This document shows positions 7,579 to 61,991 of a DNA stretch of 64,000 nt, piece after piece. A program made the translations under genes and the position numbers. The notes under the pieces are model-generated. The model had not been told where the DNA came from. It saw only the letters and a list, made by a program, of their open reading frames with translations, and made no database searches. The stretch spans positions 230,035 to 294,034 of IMG/VR virus record IMGVR_UViG_3300044568_003163, one strand, 5' to 3'. This DNA comes from a virus. Within the stretch, counting starts at the first letter, position 1, and the number at the start of each line of letters is the position of its first letter.

Positions 7579-7986
7579 TTACTTCAATAATTTTCTAATA
7601 TTTTCAATAACTATTGATCGATGATTGATAACTGCCTGAGCTTCTTTAGGATGTCTTTGCATAAGTTTTATCGTTTCTCTTGCCCAATTTTCTATTTCCT
7701 TTGTTAGCTCAAGAGTTTTAGGCCAGGTTGAATCGTTAACGACATCAAAATCTGGATTACCTTCTAGTGATTCAATTCCAGTTTCTACGCTTTTATCGAT
7801 GTTCGACCAATATCCACCTCCTTTAGAACTTATGATAGTTCCAACTGATACTTTTACTTTTCTAGTTCCTCTGATATTTTTAACTTCAGTGTCTTTATTA
7901 GCAATATATACATTCCAATATTCTCCACCTTTATCTAAAAATGTAGATTCATTTAAGAATTCTTCGTATGTAGGTAGTTTACTCAT
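7579..7986 (-). CDS. Predicted internal head (capsid-targeted) protein (135 aa)
   Basis: The N-terminus MSKLPTYEEFLNES fits the shared capsid-targeting pattern, with a predicted gp21 cut after FLNE. The mature part starts with a beta-rich section (EYWNVYIANKDTEV, RKVKVSVGTIISSKGGGYW), perhaps a small SH3-like barrel, and ends in helices (IENWARETIKLMQRH). No known family. It starts at the final base of the ATP-grasp gene upstream and abuts the next cargo gene downstream, so the three are probably co-transcribed. Confidence 0.65.
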   Translation of the reverse strand: MSKLPTYEEFLNESTFLDKGGEYWNVYIANKDTEVKNIRGTRKVKVSVGTIISSKGGGYWSNIDKSVETGIESLEGNPDFDVVNDSTWPKTLELTKEIENWARETIKLMQRHPKEAQAVINHRSIVIENIRKLLK

Positions 7987-9482
7987 TATTTCTTTGTTTT
8001 CTTATTTTCAAATGTTATTCCAGCATGTGCACTTCCTTTAGCTTCACCTGGATGATATTCACCATCAAATGAAGTTACTACGAAAGTTTTATATGGCGAT
8101 ACTGAACAACCAATTCTTTCCATAAATTTACGATTAACTAAAAATTTAGTAGATTTATCTGTTCTATTAACTAATGAAACCTGAACCTCTTTGTAAGTTT
8201 TACCTGCAAATGCAATATCCATTTCAATTATAGGCCTTTCATCTATATCGTTACCAACTTCTGCGTTAGAAATTCCAATTATCTGATGTACGTATTTTTT
8301 GCCGTTCAATTCCCAATTACACTGTTTACCATCTTCGCTAATTTTCATTTTATCATAAGTCATAGAACATGAAAGTGAACCGTTTCCAGTATCAAATTTA
8401 GCAACAACATCACCAATTCCAGGAATTGTAATTACTTCTCTAAATCCAATAACTCTACGAGAACGAATCCAATTTTGTCTATCTGATAGAAAATCGATGA
8501 TGTCTTTAATAACATCTACACCAGTAGCTTTTTTTAATCCTTGTGTACCTGGAGATGAGTTAACTTCCAGTACATAGTTTTTACCTGTTTTCTCATCAAC
8601 GATAATATCAACTCCACACCAATTACAACCTACTGCCTTAGCCGATTCGATTGCAATTCTTTCTTGTTCTGGTGTTAATTTAGTTTTTTCAACAGAACCA
8701 CCTAATGAATAGTTAGTTCTAAAGTCTTTATCGACTTTGTTTCTTCTCATATAACCTAAAAGTACCGAGTCAGTATCTTCTGGTTTAGGCGAATTGAAAC
8801 GTTTAGTTAAAACGTGAATACGTAAGTCATATTCTGATTCGATTTTTTCTTGTATAAGAGTTTCTACAGTTGGATCTACTTTCCATAAAGTTTGTAATAC
8901 TGATTTAAGAGATGCCAATGAATCTATAATAGAAACTCCAATTCCTTGAGAACCAGAAAGCATTTTAAGAATTACAGGAAATTGTCCGCCGATTTGTTCA
9001 ACTGCCGGTTCGATAGAATCTTCTCCATCGACCATTGCCATTTTAGGAACTGGAAGACCAGCATCCATAAGCATTTTCGAAGTAACGTATTTGTTTTCGC
9101 ATGCTAAAACTGAACTTAGTGTGTTTACTACAAAAAAGTTATTGTCTTCTAATTGAGATACAATATCTCGAGTATAAGTATTTCTAACGATTCCTCTACG
9201 AGTTAAAATCGCAGTATCTTCGGAATCAATTTTAAAGGGTTTCTTGGTTTTATCAACGATAGTAAAATAATCTCCATCAGTACTTTTAGTTAACGAACAT
9301 GTGTTAACGTCAATGATACGGAATTCAATTCCACGTTTTTTACATTCTTTCTCAACTGCAGGAACGGTATATGATTCCTCACTGATATTTGAAAGGAGTA
9401 CAACCTTAACAGGATTTTTAGGTGTTGATTTTGTAGCCTCATTAATTACAAATTCGTTAAAGTATGCGAGACGGTTTTTCAT
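7986..9482 (-). CDS. RimK-type ATP-grasp ligase fused to retropepsin-like protease, with capsid-targeting leader
   Basis: The first 16 residues (MKNRLAYFNEFVINEA) match the capsid-targeting pattern, with a cut expected after INE. Residues about 25-330 are a RimK-type ATP-grasp ligase: FPVILKMLSGSQGIGV (ATP-binding loop), DLRIHVL, FRTNYSLGG, and CGVDIIVDEKTG...VLEVNSSPGTQG (metal-binding acids). RimK enzymes add glutamate or similar residues to protein C-termini. From about residue 342 a second domain has FDTGNGSLSCSM (DTG at about 364-366), the pattern of the retropepsin-like 'ATP-dependent zinc protease' family often found beside RimK. Both in one polypeptide, with a head leader, suggests an enzyme packed in the capsid that modifies or trims a protein tail. 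Substrate unknown. Confidence 0.85.
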   Translation of the reverse strand: MKNRLAYFNEFVINEATKSTPKNPVKVVLLSNISEESYTVPAVEKECKKRGIEFRIIDVNTCSLTKSTDGDYFTIVDKTKKPFKIDSEDTAILTRRGIVRNTYTRDIVSQLEDNNFFVVNTLSSVLACENKYVTSKMLMDAGLPVPKMAMVDGEDSIEPAVEQIGGQFPVILKMLSGSQGIGVSIIDSLASLKSVLQTLWKVDPTVETLIQEKIESEYDLRIHVLTKRFNSPKPEDTDSVLLGYMRRNKVDKDFRTNYSLGGSVEKTKLTPEQERIAIESAKAVGCNWCGVDIIVDEKTGKNYVLEVNSSPGTQGLKKATGVDVIKDIIDFLSDRQNWIRSRRVIGFREVITIPGIGDVVAKFDTGNGSLSCSMTYDKMKISEDGKQCNWELNGKKYVHQIIGISNAEVGNDIDERPIIEMDIAFAGKTYKEVQVSLVNRTDKSTKFLVNRKFMERIGCSVSPYKTFVVTSFDGEYHPGEAKGSAHAGITFENKKTKK

Positions 9483-53445: not shown

Positions 53446-53462
53446 ATAGTATATGTATCTTT
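53446..53462 (-). promoter_or_regulatory. Late-promoter-like variant before the 53146-53445 gene
   Basis: Minus strand GATACATATACTATATG, matching the element at 52042-52057 except for two extra bases. It overlaps the end of the tube-like gene. Confidence 0.35.
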
Positions 53463-54027
53463 ATTGTAATTGGAAGTCTATTCTCATATCGTTGAAAGCA
53501 AACGTAGCTTCAAAAGTTCTAAATTCTGGAGTTACTTCAGAATACGACATTGTAAATTCGTTCAATCCGGTAAATAAACAATCCGTAAATATTGAAGAGT
53601 ACATTGCATTACCTTCCGCATCAAATATTCTAATAGGAACATCAACAGTATATGGTTTTGAAGTAGAGAACGAATAGTAATAAAAGAAAGTTTCTAACAT
53701 AATCCAATAATTGACATTTCCGTCAAATAATTGAAAAGTGATGGTAAAATTACGATCGATTAAAGTCTCTTGTGATAATGCCTGTCTAAATTTACGAGTA
53801 GTACCTTTTGCTGCATCTTGATATCCGGGTTTAACTTGCTCGATAGGAGAATAATTAAAATTAGGTATCGTAATTGATTGTATCGAGTAATTTACTAAGT
53901 CGGAAACATTCCTAACCGGAGTTGGCATTCGATGTATATATGGCAAATACCTTTGCTTAATTTCTTCCGGTATAAAAGTCTTTGGTAGTTCGACTTTAAA
54001 TAAGTCGTTTCTATTTTGTAAAATCAT
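53461..54027 (-). CDS. Tail tube-like protein (gp19/gp54 fold)
   Basis: Probably a tail tube or tube-initiator protein. The C-terminal two thirds read as the tube fold: RNFTITFQLFDGNVNYWIMLETFFYYY, DVPIRIFDAEGNAMYSSIFTDCLFTGLNEFTMSYSE, and FRTFEATFAFNDMRIDF. This is a strand-rich pattern I associate with T4-like tube proteins, with NYW/FFYYY in the inter-subunit helix. 188 residues against 163 in T4 gp19. Whether it is the main tube protein or a baseplate-end relative cannot be told, since sheath and baseplate genes are outside the window. Confidence 0.55.
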   Translation of the reverse strand: MILQNRNDLFKVELPKTFIPEEIKQRYLPYIHRMPTPVRNVSDLVNYSIQSITIPNFNYSPIEQVKPGYQDAAKGTTRKFRQALSQETLIDRNFTITFQLFDGNVNYWIMLETFFYYYSFSTSKPYTVDVPIRIFDAEGNAMYSSIFTDCLFTGLNEFTMSYSEVTPEFRTFEATFAFNDMRIDFQLQ

Positions 54028-54033
54028 ATGTTA

Positions 54034-57000
54034 TTAAAATCTATCGTTATTATCATCTCCGAGTAAATCTCCAGGTACATCATCGAAATTTAGTGATAGA
54101 GCTACTTTGTTGTGTACTAAAATACCATTTGCATAGTATGTGTGATTGTCTTCTATTTCTAAGTTGTATACTTTAGTAGGTTTCTTAGAGACTATTTCCG
54201 TAATTCCTTCAATTGTTATATGTTCATCGAATTCATTTAACGCGATATCGCCTTCGATTAATTGAGCCACTTCTAAATCATGTAATTCCATAGATGAAGT
54301 AGGGTCGAATGAACACCAACCTTTATCAATAATCCAGAATGGATGCTCAGGTGTACATTGTATTGAAGTTCCATCAGCAAAATCTAATAAGATAAATTTA
54401 GAAGCAGATGGTTGTATAAGAGATTTTACAATTCCTATTTCAGTTTCTTCGTAATCTTCGTTATATGTTAAAATTTCCATTCCAACTTTAACTTCTTCGA
54501 TTAACATTTTAATTCCATCCGGTAAAGTAATGTAAGTTCCTTCAACGAAACATCCACCTCCACCTCCACCTGAACCACTAGCCTGTCCAGTATTTTGCAC
54601 TGGAGCGGTAGGAATTGGAGCTGGATTAATTGGCGCTGGTTGAGGATTAACTACTGGTCTAACTGGCGGAGCCGTTACGTTAGGTGCATTTTGAGAGACA
54701 CCACCTCCACCACCTTGTTGTGTATATGTTGTTGCCGGAGTAACATTTATATTAGCAAGATTTGCATTTAATTCTAATTCAACAAAAGAAGGAGTTGGTA
54801 CAGGAGTAGGAGCTTGTACTACTACCGGTTCACTACTAACAGGAGCAACATAAGTAGTAGCTGCTTGACTAGTAACCGGAGTTGGTAATGGAGCTGGTGC
54901 TGATATCGTTATTTGTTGAGTGTTAATTATTTGACTTTGTGTTGCTAATTGACTTTGTAATGTAGATAATAAACCTTGTTCCATTAACATTTTAGATTGA
55001 CATAAAGATAAAGCTGCATTCAATTCCTTTACTTGATTGTTTAAAGACGATATCGTTGATTGAGATGAATCTAATTGTTGGTTTAAATTTGATATTTGTT
55101 GATTTAAAATCGATATGGTTGCTAATTCTGCTGCATTAGTTGATGTTAATTTAGTTATTTGAGCTGCATCTGATGCATCATTAGCCGAAAGCTGAGCATT
55201 AAGCTTTGAATAATCATTTATTTGCTGAGTTAATAGTTGATTTTGTTCTAATGATTTAGTTAAATTATCTGCTTGAATTTTTATTTGATTGTTCAAACTA
55301 GTATTTTGCGAAACGAATAGATTGATAGATGATTCTAACGAAGCAATTTTATTAGCTTCATTCATATTCAACCACTCATCATTATTATAGAATCTACCGT
55401 TATATAAAAAGGTCTTATCTCCTTTGATATTCAATAAGAATATTCTAAATTGACGATTAGAAAATCCAAGTATAGTATTTGCTTGTGTTTCTGTTAATCT
55501 AAATACAATTTCACCTTTACTTTTCGAAGTAAACGTGCTAGGATATTCTTTTATTTCGACATTCTCACCGGTATTAGACGTAAAAGTAAGTATCAATTCA
55601 CCTATACCGGATAGATTAAGAGCCGTATTTTGTCCTTTTCGTGAGTCTTTTTGAAATATTACAAACTTTAAGAAAGTTACTGAATTTGTAATTAAAATTC
55701 TAGCTAATCCATTACTATAAATAGTAGAATTGTTATTACTAACTAATGCTTGTCGAGAAACCTTAATTAAATTACTTCTTTCTGAGAGTGTATCAACATC
55801 CGGATTTATTGAACTATAAGATACAGAAATTTGAGTATTATCTAAAAACGATGTGATGTACTTAAAGTTATCTAAAACTGGCTCAACAATTCTATTAAGT
55901 TGAATGTCTTTAATAACGTTCTTATTGTAAATTACAGATTGAATTGGATTTTCTCCTAGATTAAGTTGTAGTAATTTTCTGCCGTACTTAGCAACTGAAT
56001 ATGATGTTAACGAAGAAGCTTTCCATACTTGAGAATTATCGTTACGGTTATACATACGAACTACGTAATCAATTTTAAAGGCTATTGCCGATGAATTCTT
56101 AATTATCGGTCTAAAAGTATTAACTAAATCATAATTAGTTGTCTGTGACATTTGGATATCATCGGTTTTAACCCAATAATACGATTGACTAGATGAATCA
56201 TATATGTATTCAGATATTACTAAATCATGAAGTAGCATATAATTATATCCATTAGAATTTAAGTCATTAATGAATTGCTCGATAATAGCTCCATTGTATG
56301 TACCATAAAACTCGATATAATCTCCGTTACTTGATTCCTGAATAGTAGCTGCAACCGTACTAAATTGGTCTTGTGTTGCTAAATCAAATTGAGTAGTTTC
56401 TTGTAGATAAATGTAATCTTGTCCGTCAATTTCTCTTCGTTCATTAATCCAAGCAAAAGTTGCTTGAATAGTTTGGTCACGCTTTATTCCTATGATAGTT
56501 CCATTATTAGGCTCTTGAGTAATTCTCTCTACCACAGTGTCGCCGGTTAGATTGCCTATCCAGTAATCAATAATAAGGTTATGTAATGAAAGTACTCTAA
56601 ATTCTAAATAAGAATCATAAATACGTCCTCCGAAAAAGAATGAATTTGGATTTAATGTTTCGTATGTATCGTTTCGATTAAATACGAAATTTGCAAGATT
56701 AAAAAGTTTTCCGTTTTTCTTTGCAGCTTTAAGATTAAATATAAGTCCTTGATATTGCTCATAATTAAATCCTTGAACTAAGTGAAGTCTAACTGTATCA
56801 TATACAGGAGCTTGTGGTGTAGTAAATACAATAGGTAAATTCGCAGTAGATGTTAAATTATCATCGTAGTCGTTGTAAAAAATAGCTTTATCAATATCTA
56901 ATAAAGCTGATCTGTACGGATCAACATACGCATAAGATCGGTTTCTGACGTTACCAGTACCTAAAGGCAATCCGAGCTGTATTAATTCATTTGCGTCTGA

Positions 57001-57171
57001 ATTAAGTATTATATCTTGTCCATCATGAGCATTTCTCATCTTCCAAATAGGATTGGTAGTTGTGCTTAGACGATAAGGATTTCCTAACGTGTTAATTTCT
57101 GATTGGTCAGCATAAATGTACTCTAAAAGGACAGATGATGATATACCGATAAATTTTGAAGATGTTGCCAT
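54034..57171 (-). CDS. Large tail/baseplate structural protein with C-terminal Hint (intein-like) domain (1045 aa)
   Basis: Residues 1-600 are beta-rich, with no family I recognise (YADQSEINTLGNPYRL at the start). About 610-735 is a coiled coil (SLNNQIKIQADNLTKSLEQ..., SNLNQQLDSSQSTISSLNNQ). Then come a Pro/Thr/Val linker and a Gly run ending at Cys874. Residues 874-1021 are a Hint domain: CFVEGTYITLPDG (block A, Cys1), CTPEHPFWI (block B, T-x-x-H), VYNLEIEDNHTYYANGILVHN (blocks F/G, terminal His-Asn). The next residue is Lys, not Cys/Ser/Thr, as in bacterial intein-like domains. Self-cleavage or splicing with a 24-residue acidic tail is expected. Upstream of the tube-like gene. Confidence 0.8.
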   Translation of the reverse strand: MATSSKFIGISSSVLLEYIYADQSEINTLGNPYRLSTTTNPIWKMRNAHDGQDIILNSDANELIQLGLPLGTGNVRNRSYAYVDPYRSALLDIDKAIFYNDYDDNLTSTANLPIVFTTPQAPVYDTVRLHLVQGFNYEQYQGLIFNLKAAKKNGKLFNLANFVFNRNDTYETLNPNSFFFGGRIYDSYLEFRVLSLHNLIIDYWIGNLTGDTVVERITQEPNNGTIIGIKRDQTIQATFAWINERREIDGQDYIYLQETTQFDLATQDQFSTVAATIQESSNGDYIEFYGTYNGAIIEQFINDLNSNGYNYMLLHDLVISEYIYDSSSQSYYWVKTDDIQMSQTTNYDLVNTFRPIIKNSSAIAFKIDYVVRMYNRNDNSQVWKASSLTSYSVAKYGRKLLQLNLGENPIQSVIYNKNVIKDIQLNRIVEPVLDNFKYITSFLDNTQISVSYSSINPDVDTLSERSNLIKVSRQALVSNNNSTIYSNGLARILITNSVTFLKFVIFQKDSRKGQNTALNLSGIGELILTFTSNTGENVEIKEYPSTFTSKSKGEIVFRLTETQANTILGFSNRQFRIFLLNIKGDKTFLYNGRFYNNDEWLNMNEANKIASLESSINLFVSQNTSLNNQIKIQADNLTKSLEQNQLLTQQINDYSKLNAQLSANDASDAAQITKLTSTNAAELATISILNQQISNLNQQLDSSQSTISSLNNQVKELNAALSLCQSKMLMEQGLLSTLQSQLATQSQIINTQQITISAPAPLPTPVTSQAATTYVAPVSSEPVVVQAPTPVPTPSFVELELNANLANINVTPATTYTQQGGGGGVSQNAPNVTAPPVRPVVNPQPAPINPAPIPTAPVQNTGQASGSGGGGGGCFVEGTYITLPDGIKMLIEEVKVGMEILTYNEDYEETEIGIVKSLIQPSASKFILLDFADGTSIQCTPEHPFWIIDKGWCSFDPTSSMELHDLEVAQLIEGDIALNEFDEHITIEGITEIVSKKPTKVYNLEIEDNHTYYANGILVHNKVALSLNFDDVPGDLLGDDNNDRF
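54109..54552 (-). other. Hint / bacterial intein-like (BIL) domain within the 1045-aa protein
   Basis: Codons for Cys874 (TGT at 54550-54552) through Asn1021. It has block A Cys, block B T-P-E-H and C-terminal V-H-N, with no endonuclease insert (148 residues). Preceded by six glycines and followed by Lys. Confidence 0.85.
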
Positions 57172-57957
57172 TTAAAATATTTTGAATATGCTCTTTATGA
57201 TTTTACTAACGTTGAGGGTAGCTCCAACGCCAATAGTTATTTGAGGTCCTTGTGTTTGATTGATTGGATTAATACCCCAACCAGCATTGATGGTAGGACC
57301 CCATATGATTGTAGGTTCTGACTTTTTAAGGAATCGATCTTTGTCTAAGATAGCTCCATCTATTTTATCAAATTTTACTCCAGGATAATCAGTAGTTACG
57401 TATATTTGATATGATTTATCTAACTCAGTTAATCCAGTAGTTAGTTTAATTTTCATTTCATCTTTAGTTATCGTAGTTCCTTTATCGTTGATTGTAAATG
57501 TATTATTTATAGTATCTATCGTGAACTTGGAATTACCTTCTAAAGTTTTTGAATTATCTTTGTCAAAATCTTTATGATATGCCCAATTTAGTTCTTTAGT
57601 TCCGTCAGGATATTCTTTAATTGTATTGCTTACAACTATAGGCTCTTGACTTTTTATCGATGCAACAGTAGAAGCAATATAAAGTACATTGCCTTCTAAT
57701 TTTTTTAGGTCTTTCGCTAATCCGGCATTGAGGTCTTTTAGATTACGTCGATCGGCGATAAGTACATTTTTTAAACTTACTTCATTGCCATATTTAGTTT
57801 TAATCGTTCTTACTGAATCGGTTAAAGCTAATTGGTTTTGACGATCTACTATTGCTTGCTGTTTTAGATTTGCATTATCAGAACATTGCTTAGCCATAAG
57901 CAATGCAAAAATAATTAATGCTCCTATTAAAATTTGATTTAAGCTAGGTAATTTCAT
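57172..57957 (-). CDS. Membrane-anchored protein of the Bacteroidetes-phage type (261 aa)
   Basis: An N-terminal membrane anchor (ILIGALIIFALLMAKQC, about 10-26) is followed by a coiled coil (SVRTIKTKYGNEVSLKNVL, KDLNAGLAKDLKKLEG), a beta-type region and a C-terminal WGPTINAGWGINPINQTQGPQITIGVGATL. This outline is familiar from Bacteroidetes phage proteins of unknown function; an inner-membrane spanin-like or superinfection role is possible but unproven. It sits between the fibre and the Hint-bearing protein with no gap on either side. Confidence 0.6.
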   Translation of the reverse strand: MKLPSLNQILIGALIIFALLMAKQCSDNANLKQQAIVDRQNQLALTDSVRTIKTKYGNEVSLKNVLIADRRNLKDLNAGLAKDLKKLEGNVLYIASTVASIKSQEPIVVSNTIKEYPDGTKELNWAYHKDFDKDNSKTLEGNSKFTIDTINNTFTINDKGTTITKDEMKIKLTTGLTELDKSYQIYVTTDYPGVKFDKIDGAILDKDRFLKKSEPTIIWGPTINAGWGINPINQTQGPQITIGVGATLNVSKIIKSIFKIF

Positions 57958-60900
57958 TATATTGAATTTCTTTTTATTATCGCTGAACCTTCGATCGAAT
58001 ACGTTAATTTATTTGCGTAAAGGACGCCAGGAGTAGTAGATAAGCTTATTGCAGTTCCACCAGTAGTTATTACTACATCTTTTAATATAGTAGAAGTATT
58101 TGCAGTCATAACATCGGTAGATATAACTTTACATCTAGCTTCTAAAGAATTATCAGTTCCACCAACTGCGTTCATAGTTATAGTAACCACAAAATTATTT
58201 GCATATGATATAAATCCACTTTCAGTTTGGGTGATTGTTTTTACTAGAGAACCTGCAGAAAGTATTTGCATTGTTCCTTCTCCAGTAGGATTGTAAAATG
58301 AATATGCGATTCTTTGACTAGAATTTTCTAAGTTAGTACCCATAGTGAAATCTGGAGTTAAATTCTGACCGTCATTATCATCGCTATATATATCTCCTAA
58401 TTCGCCAGAACCTGAATATGCTCTAAGTTTTCGAGAAACTAAATTTTCTCTAGCAATTTCGTACCAACAACCTCTACCGTAATCGTTTGCTCCAGAACCG
58501 TCATCTCCGTGCCATTGGAGGGTTATTGACCTCCAAGGAGTAATTTTAAATGCACCAATTCCTTGCATATCACCAGCTTCAGCTTGACTATTTTGTACGA
58601 AACTACTAGCTATAACTCCATGTGCACCATTACTATTAGTAATATCCGGATCATAGCCTCCATATGAAATAGAAGTCCACGATTGGTTTTGTATAATATT
58701 GTATTGATTGATTGCATTATTTATTGCCGCATCTATTGCGGGAGTTGTCGTTGACAATGTTGCTGGAGTGATTCCGAGAGGTGCTTGTTTAGCATTACCT
58801 GGCATAGGCCAAGGTCTTTGGTTTGTGAATCCATTTTCTGTTCCATTTACTCCAGCTCCTGGTAAAGGCCATGATACACCACCGCCAGCTGCTAATCCAT
58901 TAAATTTCTCGGCAGCCATAGCAATATTATCTTTACTAATTATACTACTTTGAACTTGTGGTGACGGTGTTGTATTATATGCAGTATATCTTTTAATAGC
59001 GTTAGGTACTAAAACTGAATAATTTCTAGGATCTACGTCAAGAATCATAATTCTAAGTATTTGGCCTTCGTAATATCCATCTTCGATCGTAAATTGTTGA
59101 GAATTCGTAAGTGGATTTATTGGTACAGATCCACCAGGAACTTGTCCACTTAAAAAAGTAGGAGTCGAAGATAATTGTAGACCGGTAATGAAACTAGATG
59201 AGAATATTGGGCAATTAGTTTTAGGCTTCGTTAAGTCTAAAAATACAGTAGAACTTGTAGCAGGTATTTCGTGATATACTATTCGATGATAAGCATTAGC
59301 AACATTGGTAGATTGACCATTATAAGTTGCGATGATATTTACTGCATACCAAGGAAGTGTATTAATATCATAATATTTTGGTAATAAGGCAAAAGTATTA
59401 TTAATAGTAAATCCTCCTACATTAGATCTACCTCCTGGTAAATTTTTACTAGGACCATCTCCCATAGAACTCCATTTAGCAACAACTATAGGGCTTACAG
59501 TATTACTTATAGTAGTTGCACCAATAGGAACGGATCTATCTGCAAATAATGCACCTACTGAGGTTTCTCCAGGCATTCTACCCATACCAGTCTTGGCATC
59601 TGGTAATGCAAAATCCGGATACATTGAACTTGCCATTCCTTTAGCTAAAAATTGTTTAGCCATTATAGTTTTTTCTGTAACAAATCCTATTTGCAATCTA
59701 TAACTATAATCATCTGGGGTGTACGAAAAATTCCTAAAAGTAGAGTTAATTGATGGTCCATCCCAACGAATTGTATCTAAACCTTGAGTTTTGGTTTCGC
59801 CTTGAACGATAAGTCCACCAATTAACATTCCATTAATTGGAACGTTATTAAAAAATTTATGATATCCGGAATTAGTAGATCCTATAGTAATCGATCCATT
59901 AATTGCAAGTTTAGATTTAGCATACGAAATTTGATTTATATTGATCGATCCTAATACATTATAAGCGGTTGAACCTGGAACAAATCCAATACCAACATTA
60001 CCGGTCGTATCTTCTTTTCCTGGCTGAATGTATATATGAGGATTTTCATATCCTTGAACTTGAGCATACGATAGCGTTATATTAAAATCCGGTAATGCTT
60101 TCCCACCACCATCATCTAACCCTCCACTCACTGATCCGTAGAAAGAAGTAGTAGCCGAAGAATCTCTTCTAACGTAAGTTTTTAATACTGGATTAGTTAA
60201 TGAAATAGGTGCAGGATTATATACTGGAATCTGGATTCCTCCTTTCCCACCACCAGGCGTAGTATAAGTTGTAAATTGTTGATCGTCTTTCCATGTAGTA
60301 TTACCAAATGCAATACCTCCATTACGTGAAGATGCAGTTTCTCGAGAATCAAAACCGGCATACCAATTAGTAATATAATCACCTGGTTTAGCAGAATCTC
60401 CGTCCCACATAAATTTTCGAGTAGCAACATCAGGAATCGCTGATATATGTATAGGAAATTGAGGTTTATTTATTGTACGAGTATTATTAGATAGACCTAA
60501 TCTACCACCATTATATGCAGTAACTCCAGTAGTAGAAACAGTTGAGTTATTAATATCGTAGCTACCAGCATTAATCATTAATGAATCTAGCACTACTCCA
60601 ACATTTCCACTAACATTAACTGAGTTTTCTGTAGTTCTAACCGGAGTAATAGATCCAGCTAAAGTAAGAAACTTAGCATTTTTTAAATTTTGATTACCTA
60701 TTTGTACAGAATCTTGAAAGAATTTAATAGCTGAATCAACTGTATTAAATCTTGTTATTTTTCTAACAATACCTAAACCTTGAAAATTATTTGTTGCTAT
60801 AGGTATTCCTTGAGAAGCGTTATAAGTAGGTCCTATAATAACTGAACCTGAACGATGTTCTGGATATCCATCAGTATAACTAGTTCCTGCTCCTTGTTGA

Positions 60901-61991
60901 TTTTGTAATGCTATATATCCATATGTATTAGCAGCTCCAGAGCTACCTGGTAATGTTTCTATCGATGGAATAGAATTTATTATAATTTCTTTTAAATTAT
61001 CAGACGAGCCTTCAGTTCCGTTATTAAAGGAAAAATCTCTTTCAATATTAACAAATTTCGTTCTATCATAATTACTAATCTTAACGTCAGCTGCCATAAT
61101 TTCAATCGTAGCAGGTTTAACTATATAAGGAGCAGTTCCAGATGTAGCACCACCAGCTTGAATTTTTATATTTGATTGATACGAATGAACTTTCCATTTA
61201 GTTGTAAAAGTTCCACCTGACTGATCCTGTTCAGTAGCAAACGCTGCATGAACAAAATTATACGCACTATTTGTTCCTCCAGCCGAAGTACTCCCAGAAT
61301 TACCGTAAATATCAGAAGAAGTTCCGCCTTCAGGTAAAGGTCCACCAAAAGAAACCCCGTTTTGACCGTTTGGATTAACATTATTTTGAATTATTGTAAA
61401 TTTCGGTACACTTGCAGTATCTCGTGTACCAGAAATATTAGTACCAAAATTCTTAAGATTAAAATAAGCCCAATTAGCATCTCCTAAGAAAATCGAATTT
61501 TTGAAGGTTTCGTTAGGAATTAAGAAATCTATTTCATTATTTGTAAAACCTACATTAGGAGTAGGTGAATATCCTTGACCATCTATTGGATTACCACCAG
61601 TAGCTGGTAAATAATATTTCCATTCGAGTGAACCACCAGCAGTTCCTGGTATACCTTGAGGACCTGTAAGATTTATACCTGAAGCAGTCCATCCAGTTGC
61701 TCCTCCTATGTTATAAAACTCATATACATTACCGCTACTATCAAGAAAATGGTCTTGTATTCTTAACGAAGTGCCATCATGGTCAGCAGTTTGGCCGAAT
61801 GCGGAAGGACCAACAAACCAATGGTCTCCTCTAAATCCTTGAGGACCTACTGGTCCAATTTCACCTTGAATTCCTTGAATTCCAGGAGGTCCACCACCAG
61901 CTAATATTAGCTGATCGAAGTTAAAATTTACTTTTTCTATTACACCAGACATTGAGTCTGATGATATAATTTCTTTAATTGTAATTGGCAT
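57957..61991 (-). CDS. Large tail fibre-like protein with collagen-like repeats (1344 aa)
   Basis: The N-terminus MPITIKEIISSDSMSGVIEKVNFNFDQLILAGGG, followed by collagen triplets (GPPGIQGIQGEIGPVGPQG, about 34-55), is a start I associate with Bacteroidetes phage fibre or baseplate proteins. A second short Gly-X-Y piece (GPQGIPGTAGG) follows at about 110. The remaining 1200 residues are Gly/Asn/Ser/Thr-rich beta structure with many tandem-like turns, as in trimeric fibres. Likely the host-contact fibre or its baseplate anchor. No chaperone or peptidase domain recognised at the C-terminus. Confidence 0.68.
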   Translation of the reverse strand: MPITIKEIISSDSMSGVIEKVNFNFDQLILAGGGPPGIQGIQGEIGPVGPQGFRGDHWFVGPSAFGQTADHDGTSLRIQDHFLDSSGNVYEFYNIGGATGWTASGINLTGPQGIPGTAGGSLEWKYYLPATGGNPIDGQGYSPTPNVGFTNNEIDFLIPNETFKNSIFLGDANWAYFNLKNFGTNISGTRDTASVPKFTIIQNNVNPNGQNGVSFGGPLPEGGTSSDIYGNSGSTSAGGTNSAYNFVHAAFATEQDQSGGTFTTKWKVHSYQSNIKIQAGGATSGTAPYIVKPATIEIMAADVKISNYDRTKFVNIERDFSFNNGTEGSSDNLKEIIINSIPSIETLPGSSGAANTYGYIALQNQQGAGTSYTDGYPEHRSGSVIIGPTYNASQGIPIATNNFQGLGIVRKITRFNTVDSAIKFFQDSVQIGNQNLKNAKFLTLAGSITPVRTTENSVNVSGNVGVVLDSLMINAGSYDINNSTVSTTGVTAYNGGRLGLSNNTRTINKPQFPIHISAIPDVATRKFMWDGDSAKPGDYITNWYAGFDSRETASSRNGGIAFGNTTWKDDQQFTTYTTPGGGKGGIQIPVYNPAPISLTNPVLKTYVRRDSSATTSFYGSVSGGLDDGGGKALPDFNITLSYAQVQGYENPHIYIQPGKEDTTGNVGIGFVPGSTAYNVLGSININQISYAKSKLAINGSITIGSTNSGYHKFFNNVPINGMLIGGLIVQGETKTQGLDTIRWDGPSINSTFRNFSYTPDDYSYRLQIGFVTEKTIMAKQFLAKGMASSMYPDFALPDAKTGMGRMPGETSVGALFADRSVPIGATTISNTVSPIVVAKWSSMGDGPSKNLPGGRSNVGGFTINNTFALLPKYYDINTLPWYAVNIIATYNGQSTNVANAYHRIVYHEIPATSSTVFLDLTKPKTNCPIFSSSFITGLQLSSTPTFLSGQVPGGSVPINPLTNSQQFTIEDGYYEGQILRIMILDVDPRNYSVLVPNAIKRYTAYNTTPSPQVQSSIISKDNIAMAAEKFNGLAAGGGVSWPLPGAGVNGTENGFTNQRPWPMPGNAKQAPLGITPATLSTTTPAIDAAINNAINQYNIIQNQSWTSISYGGYDPDITNSNGAHGVIASSFVQNSQAEAGDMQGIGAFKITPWRSITLQWHGDDGSGANDYGRGCWYEIARENLVSRKLRAYSGSGELGDIYSDDNDGQNLTPDFTMGTNLENSSQRIAYSFYNPTGEGTMQILSAGSLVKTITQTESGFISYANNFVVTITMNAVGGTDNSLEARCKVISTDVMTANTSTILKDVVITTGGTAISLSTTPGVLYANKLTYSIEGSAIIKRNSI

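Follow-up and report, generated by a model that had tools for sequence, protein, structure and literature searches.

Phage intein-like domains are usually described as selfish elements inserted into enzymes of replication or packaging. The described systems closest to the domain analyzed here are the A-type bacterial intein-like (BIL) domains and BIL2, a domain of the BUBL1 locus of Tetrahymena thermophila. For A-type BILs without a +1 nucleophile, the proposed mechanism comprises thioester formation, Asn cyclization and ligation by the freed alpha-amine, with cleavage dominating (PMC4031507), and these domains are known to cleave at their own C-terminus (PMC7765530). BIL2 is reported to attach a C-terminal Gly to the side chain of a Lys, giving an isopeptide bond, with the acceptor Lys located in the downstream domain (PMC8616854).

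We examined the window, a stretch of 64,000 nt that is one portion of the 294 kb virus record IMGVR_UViG_3300044568_003163, which has T4-like genes for a major head protein, head maturation protease, portal and single-strand DNA-binding protein. Near the head genes, the window also encodes a RimK-like ATP-grasp protein (phrog_2599, ribosomal protein S6 glutaminyl transferase; 7986-9482). The Hint-bearing gene and its surroundings are composed as follows:

54034..57171, minus strand: 1045-aa Hint-bearing protein, stop codon included (intact ORF; has homologues; adjoins the tail-tube-like gene)
55357..57171, minus strand: residues 1-605, conserved N-terminal beta-rich domain, family unassigned (homologues; low-confidence AlphaFold2 model)
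54862..55356, minus strand: residues 606-770, Gln/Asn-rich coiled-coil-like stretch (sequence; weak SMC/coiled-coil HMM matches)
54553..54861, minus strand: residues 771-873, Pro/Gly-rich linker ending in GGGGGG at 54553-54570 (sequence)
54109..54552, minus strand: Hint domain, residues 874-1021 (motifs, Pfam and NCBIfam profiles, alignment, AlphaFold2 model, fold search)
54106..54108, minus strand: Lys1022, the +1 residue (sequence; +1 Lys statistics)
54037..54108, minus strand: C-terminal tail, residues 1022-1045, KVALSLNFDDVPGDLLGDDNNDRF (24 aa; not kept in relatives)
57957..61991, minus strand: collagen-like (GXY) protein near the Hint-bearing gene, here without a Hint (the same relative place carries a Hint in contigs L101/L006 and L094)
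53461..54027, minus strand: tail-tube-like protein (phrog_45; PHROG match, context for the tail assignment)

Since residues 1-605 had no Pfam or PHROG family match, the assignment of the 1045-aa protein to the tail is based on gene position, from which it is probably a tail fibre or another tail-associated virion protein. The AlphaFold2 model of these residues was poor (pLDDT 61), too low for a structure search. In Flavobacterium phage MaF61, the fibre homologue sits between genes annotated as baseplate proteins.

The initial annotation described a complete 148-residue Hint domain at 54109-54552 with Cys1, a TPEH motif and a terminal His-Asn, and this description was confirmed by motifs, profiles and the AlphaFold2 fold. 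The domain extends from Cys874 to Asn1021 without an insertion or endonuclease. On the minus strand, the (Gly)6 at 54570-54553 directly precedes Cys874 (Cys1, 54552-54550), and the block B motif T940-P-E-H943 (54354-54343), the block F His1010 (54142-54144), His1020-Asn1021 (54114-54109) and Lys1022 (54108-54106) follow. For the 1045-aa protein, matches to Pfam Intein_splicing (6.9e-10), Pfam PT-HINT (1.2e-07) and NCBIfam intein_Cterm were past their cut-offs; NCBIfam intein_Nterm was slightly below its cut-off with the full protein and above it with the C-terminal piece. The AlphaFold2 model of the Hint with its flanks (pLDDT 89.6, pTM 0.82) was closest to BIL2 (PDB 6y75; Foldseek E 2e-14, Z 25.6, rmsd 1.5 A over 149 residues), with the Clostridium thermocellum BIL (PDB 2lwy) as the next best predicted fold match (Z 21.1). 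In an alignment of 104 phage Hint sequences, Cys1, His and Asn were invariant, though for His-Asn this was partly forced by the patterns used to find the loci; the block B Thr and His were kept in >90%, and mean column identity was 24%. Judged from its sequence, the window Hint is an A-type-BIL-like domain, predicted from its intact catalytic residues to be catalytically competent. The earlier view that it is BIL-like, with no endonuclease and no canonical +1 nucleophile, is supported by the 148 aa without insertion and by Lys at +1.

A separate observation concerns the AXH domain, the ataxin-1/HBP1 module, whose Pfam profile matches the window Hint at 1.4e-11 (residues 875-978, window 54238-54549) as well as 72 of the 104 phage Hints. 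Reciprocally, the phage-Hint profile recovered ataxin-1 AXH structures at 3.6e-13 (PDB chains 1oa8, 4j2j and 1v06). AXH may be distantly related to the N-terminal two thirds of Hint, a kinship of which no mention was found in the literature searched.

Five further IMG/VR contigs, besides fragments of near-identical phages, carry a window-type Hint at 80-90% identity. Here the sequence after His-Asn is variable, KVALSLNFDDVPGDLLGDDNNDRF in the window, KIAASLTFEDGYNNNAFE in L003, KIASSLASE in L005, KILYIAEP in L006 and KIA in L004, corresponding to tails of 24, 18, 9, 8 and 3 aa. Thus, the acidic tail noted in the initial annotation is present in the window phage but not in these relatives, which keep Lys at +1 followed by a hydrophobic residue. 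The Hint itself is under strong purifying selection, with a dN/dS of 0.06-0.10 over 148 codons for pairs at dS 0.6-1.1, even when the Hints compared are borne by two different proteins. The N-terminal domain had an equally low dN/dS of 0.066 (window versus L003); higher values were obtained, 0.27 for the coil plus linker and 0.23 for the tail, the latter from 18 codons only. A search of the 294-kb record with Pfam Intein_splicing found no second Hint. A second, ordinary intein-like element, with its N and C halves in separate open frames, is present in two phages that are close kin of the window phage (L004, 7572-8839, and the contig of L005).

Comparison with related phages revealed that the module can be carried by either of two structural proteins encoded near each other. 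L006/L101 have the Hint at the end of a collagen-like protein, two genes ahead of the fibre, and their fibre homologue (784 aa) is Hint-less; the window shows the reverse arrangement, with the Hint on the fibre and none on the collagen-like protein at 57957-61991. The fibres of L176 (with Hint) and L101 (without Hint) are 55% identical, and L094 carries its Hint on a collagen-like protein 60% identical to that of L101. Orthology of the collagen-like proteins of the window and L101 is only partly supported, by a short N-terminal similarity. More distant fibre homologues without a Hint were found in L009, L011, L014, Flavobacterium phage MaF61 and huge-phage records; those of L009, L011 and L014 simply stop earlier, such that removal of the Hint restores no host sequence. 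Similarly, Hint-less homologues of tail protein L end in ..WGRKSS, ..WGRT or ..WGGS, where L378 continues ..WGRSSSNTGGGGGGG-Hint. Because these homologues end before the Gly linker, we regard linker, Hint and tail as an add-on module. For the tail protein L family, the same observation led us to reject insertion of the Hint upstream of a conserved C-terminal peptide, an idea prompted by the L035 tail KGGRGGGGGGRNEQQR.

The same architecture, as read from sequence, recurs on many unrelated phage proteins, mostly tail proteins, a breadth that the initial annotation had not noticed. N-terminal parts of the carriers include tail protein phrog_2048 (annotated as minor tail protein L in phage records), a tail assembly protein (phrog_32), DUF4815 proteins (phrog_358), collagen-like fibres, the window-type fibre and another family beginning MKGT..LLEINTDT. 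Members of this last family that end in HN-K contain tandem Hints only 0-10 residues apart (..VHN-RY-C.., ..THN-KA-C..; L139, L219, L221, L130, L189, L218, L160, L169 and others), sometimes preceded by the end of a possible third, diverged Hint. Among cultured phages, jumbo phages of Erwinia, Dickeya and Yersinia encode a collagen-like tail protein that ends in a Hint plus a TDIVAKAEKK-like tail; the Erwinia phage Y3 gene Y3_110 is annotated as a putative tail protein that 'contains intein domain'. Tblastn with the window Hint against phage isolate records recovered mostly inteins in helicases and terminases; the cultured tail proteins were reached with other C-terminal Hints as query, although two such queries gave only inteins and one gave no match. 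We also noted N-terminal Hints after about 15-45 aa (L371, L383, L433, L454, L458, L072), followed by sequence that looks, by eye, like the Gly-rich beginning of a lambda-type host specificity protein J. In addition, inteins lie between ..GIGGG and SIC/SVC of an IMP dehydrogenase-like gene in L398 and L421 (IMG/VR; family assigned by eye), and probably in the same position in L374, L422, L425 and L428.

The wider class comprises minimal Hints without a +1 Cys/Ser/Thr and no more than 60 aa from the stop codon. IMG/VR was scanned with degenerate DNA patterns that left the +1 residue free. Of the Hints recovered, 53 had a stop codon at most 60 aa away and 174 lay deeper inside proteins, with Lys at +1 in 32/53 C-terminal versus 9/174 internal Hints (p 4e-17). 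In a non-redundant, unbiased subset, +1 Lys was found in 11/30 C-terminal versus 3/36 internal Hints (p 0.007), and +1 Cys/Ser/Thr in 2/30 versus 23/36 (p 2e-6). A second scan, for His-Asn followed by any one residue and then TAA or TAG, detected Lys in 36 of 37 real Hints, which form about nine clusters at 50% identity. For tails of up to 15 aa that do not start with Lys, there was a Lys among the last three residues in 23/27, compared to 20% for 1,334 control ORFs on the same contigs (p 6e-13). Since raw Lys counts are inflated by sequence kinship, cluster counts are safer, and by 50%-identity cluster the terminal Lys was present in 12/17 (p 9e-6). Considered for a single origin, the C-terminal Lys class required about 17 label changes on a quick tree, of which only 3 were forced by well-supported branches. 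C-terminal Hints without a Lys in the tail exist but are few (for example, L350 and L122), and the spacing between Lys and Asn ranges from 1 to about 12 residues.

Among 87 non-redundant C-terminal Hints, Cys1 was present in 87, TxxH in 83 and His-Asn in 86, the last partly selected by the search patterns; in a Gly-Gly-Gly-Cys scan without selection for His-Asn, His-Asn still ended most complete Hints. Poly-Gly before Cys1 was rejected as a hallmark of the class, given that Gly was at -1 in only 37/87. Internal Hints with +1 Lys right before a recurrent (D)P(L/I)AQ(T/S)F motif occur in large phage proteins (L155, L141, L197, L222, L039), so that some Lys+1 Hints are followed by a long stretch of protein. 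A scan of 257 billion bases from cellular genomes with the Lys-stop pattern gave 11 matches, about seven or eight of them Hint-like and mostly from Bacteroidota. The few bacterial proteins ending in a Hint plus a single Lys (L469, L471, L474, L475, L476, L479) come from Bacteroidota and Oligoflexia MAGs.

We propose that the window Hint is a self-processing module at the C-terminus of a phage tail (fibre) protein, in which a Cys1 thioester would be passed to an amine or water acceptor, an explanation to which we give about an even chance. Based on Cys1, the block B Thr and His and the block F His, an N-to-S acyl shift at Gly873-Cys874 would generate a poly-Gly thioester. This thioester would be passed to water or an amine, the likeliest amine coming from the Lys-bearing tail, as a side chain or as an alpha-amine set free, on the same chain or an adjacent subunit, and the Hint would be cut from the fibre or the Gly end of the fibre relinked. 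Cyclization of Asn1021 would part the Hint from the tail. We infer the discharge of the thioester by an amine or water from the residues kept, the reports on A-type BILs and the BIL2 precedent. The near-universal retention of Cys1, TxxH and His-Asn suggests that the full set of steps, from the Cys1 acyl shift to Asn cyclization, is under selection. A timed assembly switch, also put forward in the initial annotation, is possible.

The recurrent tail Lys is a natural candidate for the acceptor, either within its own chain or across to the next subunit of an oligomeric fibre. The proposal of crosslinking to an amine appears strengthened by the recurrence of this Lys and by the BIL2 precedent (PMC8616854), and the variable spacing between Lys and Asn fits a flexible acceptor, not a fixed catalytic geometry. 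Still, the Lys need not be the nucleophile, since A-type BILs mainly cleave and can splice by alpha-amine attack (PMC4031507). Also counting against the proposal, BIL2 itself has Met-Gln, not Lys, past its catalytic Asn position, and a few C-terminal Hints have no tail Lys. We consider it rather doubtful that transfer to the Lys side chain is the biological purpose. Equally tentative is the broader suggestion that tail proteins of many phage lineages might pass the Gly thioester of a C-terminal Hint on to a Lys amine, which could belong to the Hint's own tail, to an adjacent subunit or to some other protein of the virion or the host surface.

Several other explanations were weighed. In ordinary A-type BIL splicing, the thioester would be attacked by the alpha-amine that Lys1022 gains on release; excision of the Hint would leave the fibre with the end ..GGGGGG-KVALS.., and the Lys side chain would stay idle. 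This route requires only residues that are all present in the window Hint and follows the mechanism proposed for A-type BILs without a +1 nucleophile (PMC4031507). Yet fibres with HN-K-stop tails would gain just one Lys by such splicing, which would not explain why Lys is favoured at +1 or at the tail end; we regard this route as possible but rather unlikely. Release of the acidic tail or another bioactive peptide by C-terminal cleavage would be compatible with the intact His-Asn and with the C-terminal cleavage of A-type BILs (PMC7765530). However, the tail is kept neither in sequence nor in length, with lengths of 24, 18, 9, 8 or 3 residues among close kin, and in many related Hints HN-K, with its lone Lys, is the very end. 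As the tail shrinks to Lys-Ile-Ala in relatives, where only the Lys is constant, the acidic-tail release suggested in the initial annotation is not supported, and peptide release is highly improbable.

It is also conceivable that the Hint stays unprocessed and serves the fibre end as a folded cap or for binding, with Lys tails that stabilize the Hint or shield the C-terminus from proteases. Phages commonly swap domains at the ends of their fibres, a charged C-terminus can protect a protein, and processing is so far only predicted. Against such a cap, Cys1, block B and His-Asn are almost always kept, just as they are in inteins that are active, whereas the surface is variable (mean column identity 24%, as above), and we judge it unlikely. 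Lastly, the patchy alternation of Hint-bearing and Hint-less homologues and the presence of true inteins in the same phage group would be expected of a degenerate selfish mini-intein stranded at a permissive chain end, which nonetheless is very unlikely in view of the strong purifying selection (dN/dS 0.06-0.10), the lack of an endonuclease, the non-nucleophilic +1 residue and a C-terminal position kept across many families.

Here, a Hint with all catalytic residues has been recruited, under strong purifying selection, as a C-terminal module of virion proteins in many phage groups, and the conserved Lys beside it is not explained by known mechanisms, suggesting that virus particles contain a device for self-processing or self-linking that had not been described before. 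If active, the class would provide a new route by which viruses mature or covalently link their tails, and would supply small ligase-like domains in which Gly is the donor and Lys the acceptor. Were the Gly-to-Lys transfer true, it would constitute an ATP-free, enzyme-free, ubiquitin-like system of covalent linkage in virus particles. The class can be tested directly in cultured phages that share the architecture (Erwinia Y3, Alexandra, Yersinia fHe-Yen9-02) and with minimal HN-K Hints.

In fold, Cys1 and the block B Thr-x-x-His, the window Hint has the features of the Hint superfamily, and its sequence sets it apart from several described branches. The Hedgehog Hog domain (PDB 1at0) is likewise a Hint at a protein end (fold Z 17.4 to the window Hint model), but it has a sterol-recognition region after the Hint, passes its thioester to cholesterol and lacks a His-Asn end, whereas only 24 aa follow the window Hint, which is not a Hog domain. 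Canonical mini-inteins (gp41-1, Ssp DnaB and others) have the fold and catalytic blocks in common with it. These inteins occupy conserved enzyme sites, carry a +1 Cys/Ser/Thr and restore the host protein upon excision, whereas the window Hint is a C-terminal add-on with +1 Lys; without a +1 nucleophile and not being an insertion, it does not classify as a canonical class 1 intein. B-type BILs lack the intein-like C-terminal motif; by its His-Asn and intein_Cterm match, the window Hint is not one of them.

BIL2 (PDB 6y75, 6tmm) is the best match to the window Hint by sequence (phmmer 2e-14, profile 1.5e-29) and also, for the model, by fold, and Gly-Gly before Cys1, Cys1 itself and the C-terminal Asn are common to both. 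Of the residues relevant to BUBL domains, the window Hint has Gly at -1 and Lys at +1; a Lys at +1 in BIL2 was considered and rejected, as Met-Gln follows its catalytic Asn position. BIL2 sits between two ubiquitin-like domains, in contrast to the window Hint with a fibre upstream and only 24 aa downstream. A Pfam scan of the 1045-aa protein found no ubiquitin-like family, and without flanking ubiquitin-like domains the window Hint is not classed as a BUBL BIL.

In its features, the window Hint agrees with A-type BILs such as that of Clostridium thermocellum (2lwy), which have the Hint fold, Cys1, His-Asn end, absence of a +1 Cys/Ser/Thr and absence of an endonuclease. With its C-terminal His-Asn, a +1 residue other than Cys/Ser/Thr (Lys1022) and no homing endonuclease, the window Hint fits the A-type BIL definition by features, its cleavage or splicing activity being only predicted. 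A-type BILs are described from variable regions of bacterial proteins (PMC7765530), whereas the window Hint is at the C-terminus of a probable phage tail protein and has a short Lys-bearing tail. In Erwinia Y3 (Y3_110), Alexandra, Yoloswag, Dickeya AD1 and Yersinia fHe-Yen9-02, as in the class described here, the Hint ends a GXY-repeat protein, annotated as a tail or virion structural protein, with a short tail that has Lys near its end (TDIVAKAEKK); the +1 residue in these jumbo phages is Thr or Val, not Lys. Public data already include individual proteins with the annotation 'Hint domain containing'. The open-access literature searched gave no virion proteomics for phages with such Hints and no description of C-terminal Hints of phage tail proteins or of a Lys after them, though as evidence of novelty this is weak because subscription journals were mostly outside the search. 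Collectively, the sequence comparisons point to a C-terminal, phage-tail-borne, Lys-tailed variant of the A-type-BIL-like Hint as what is new here.
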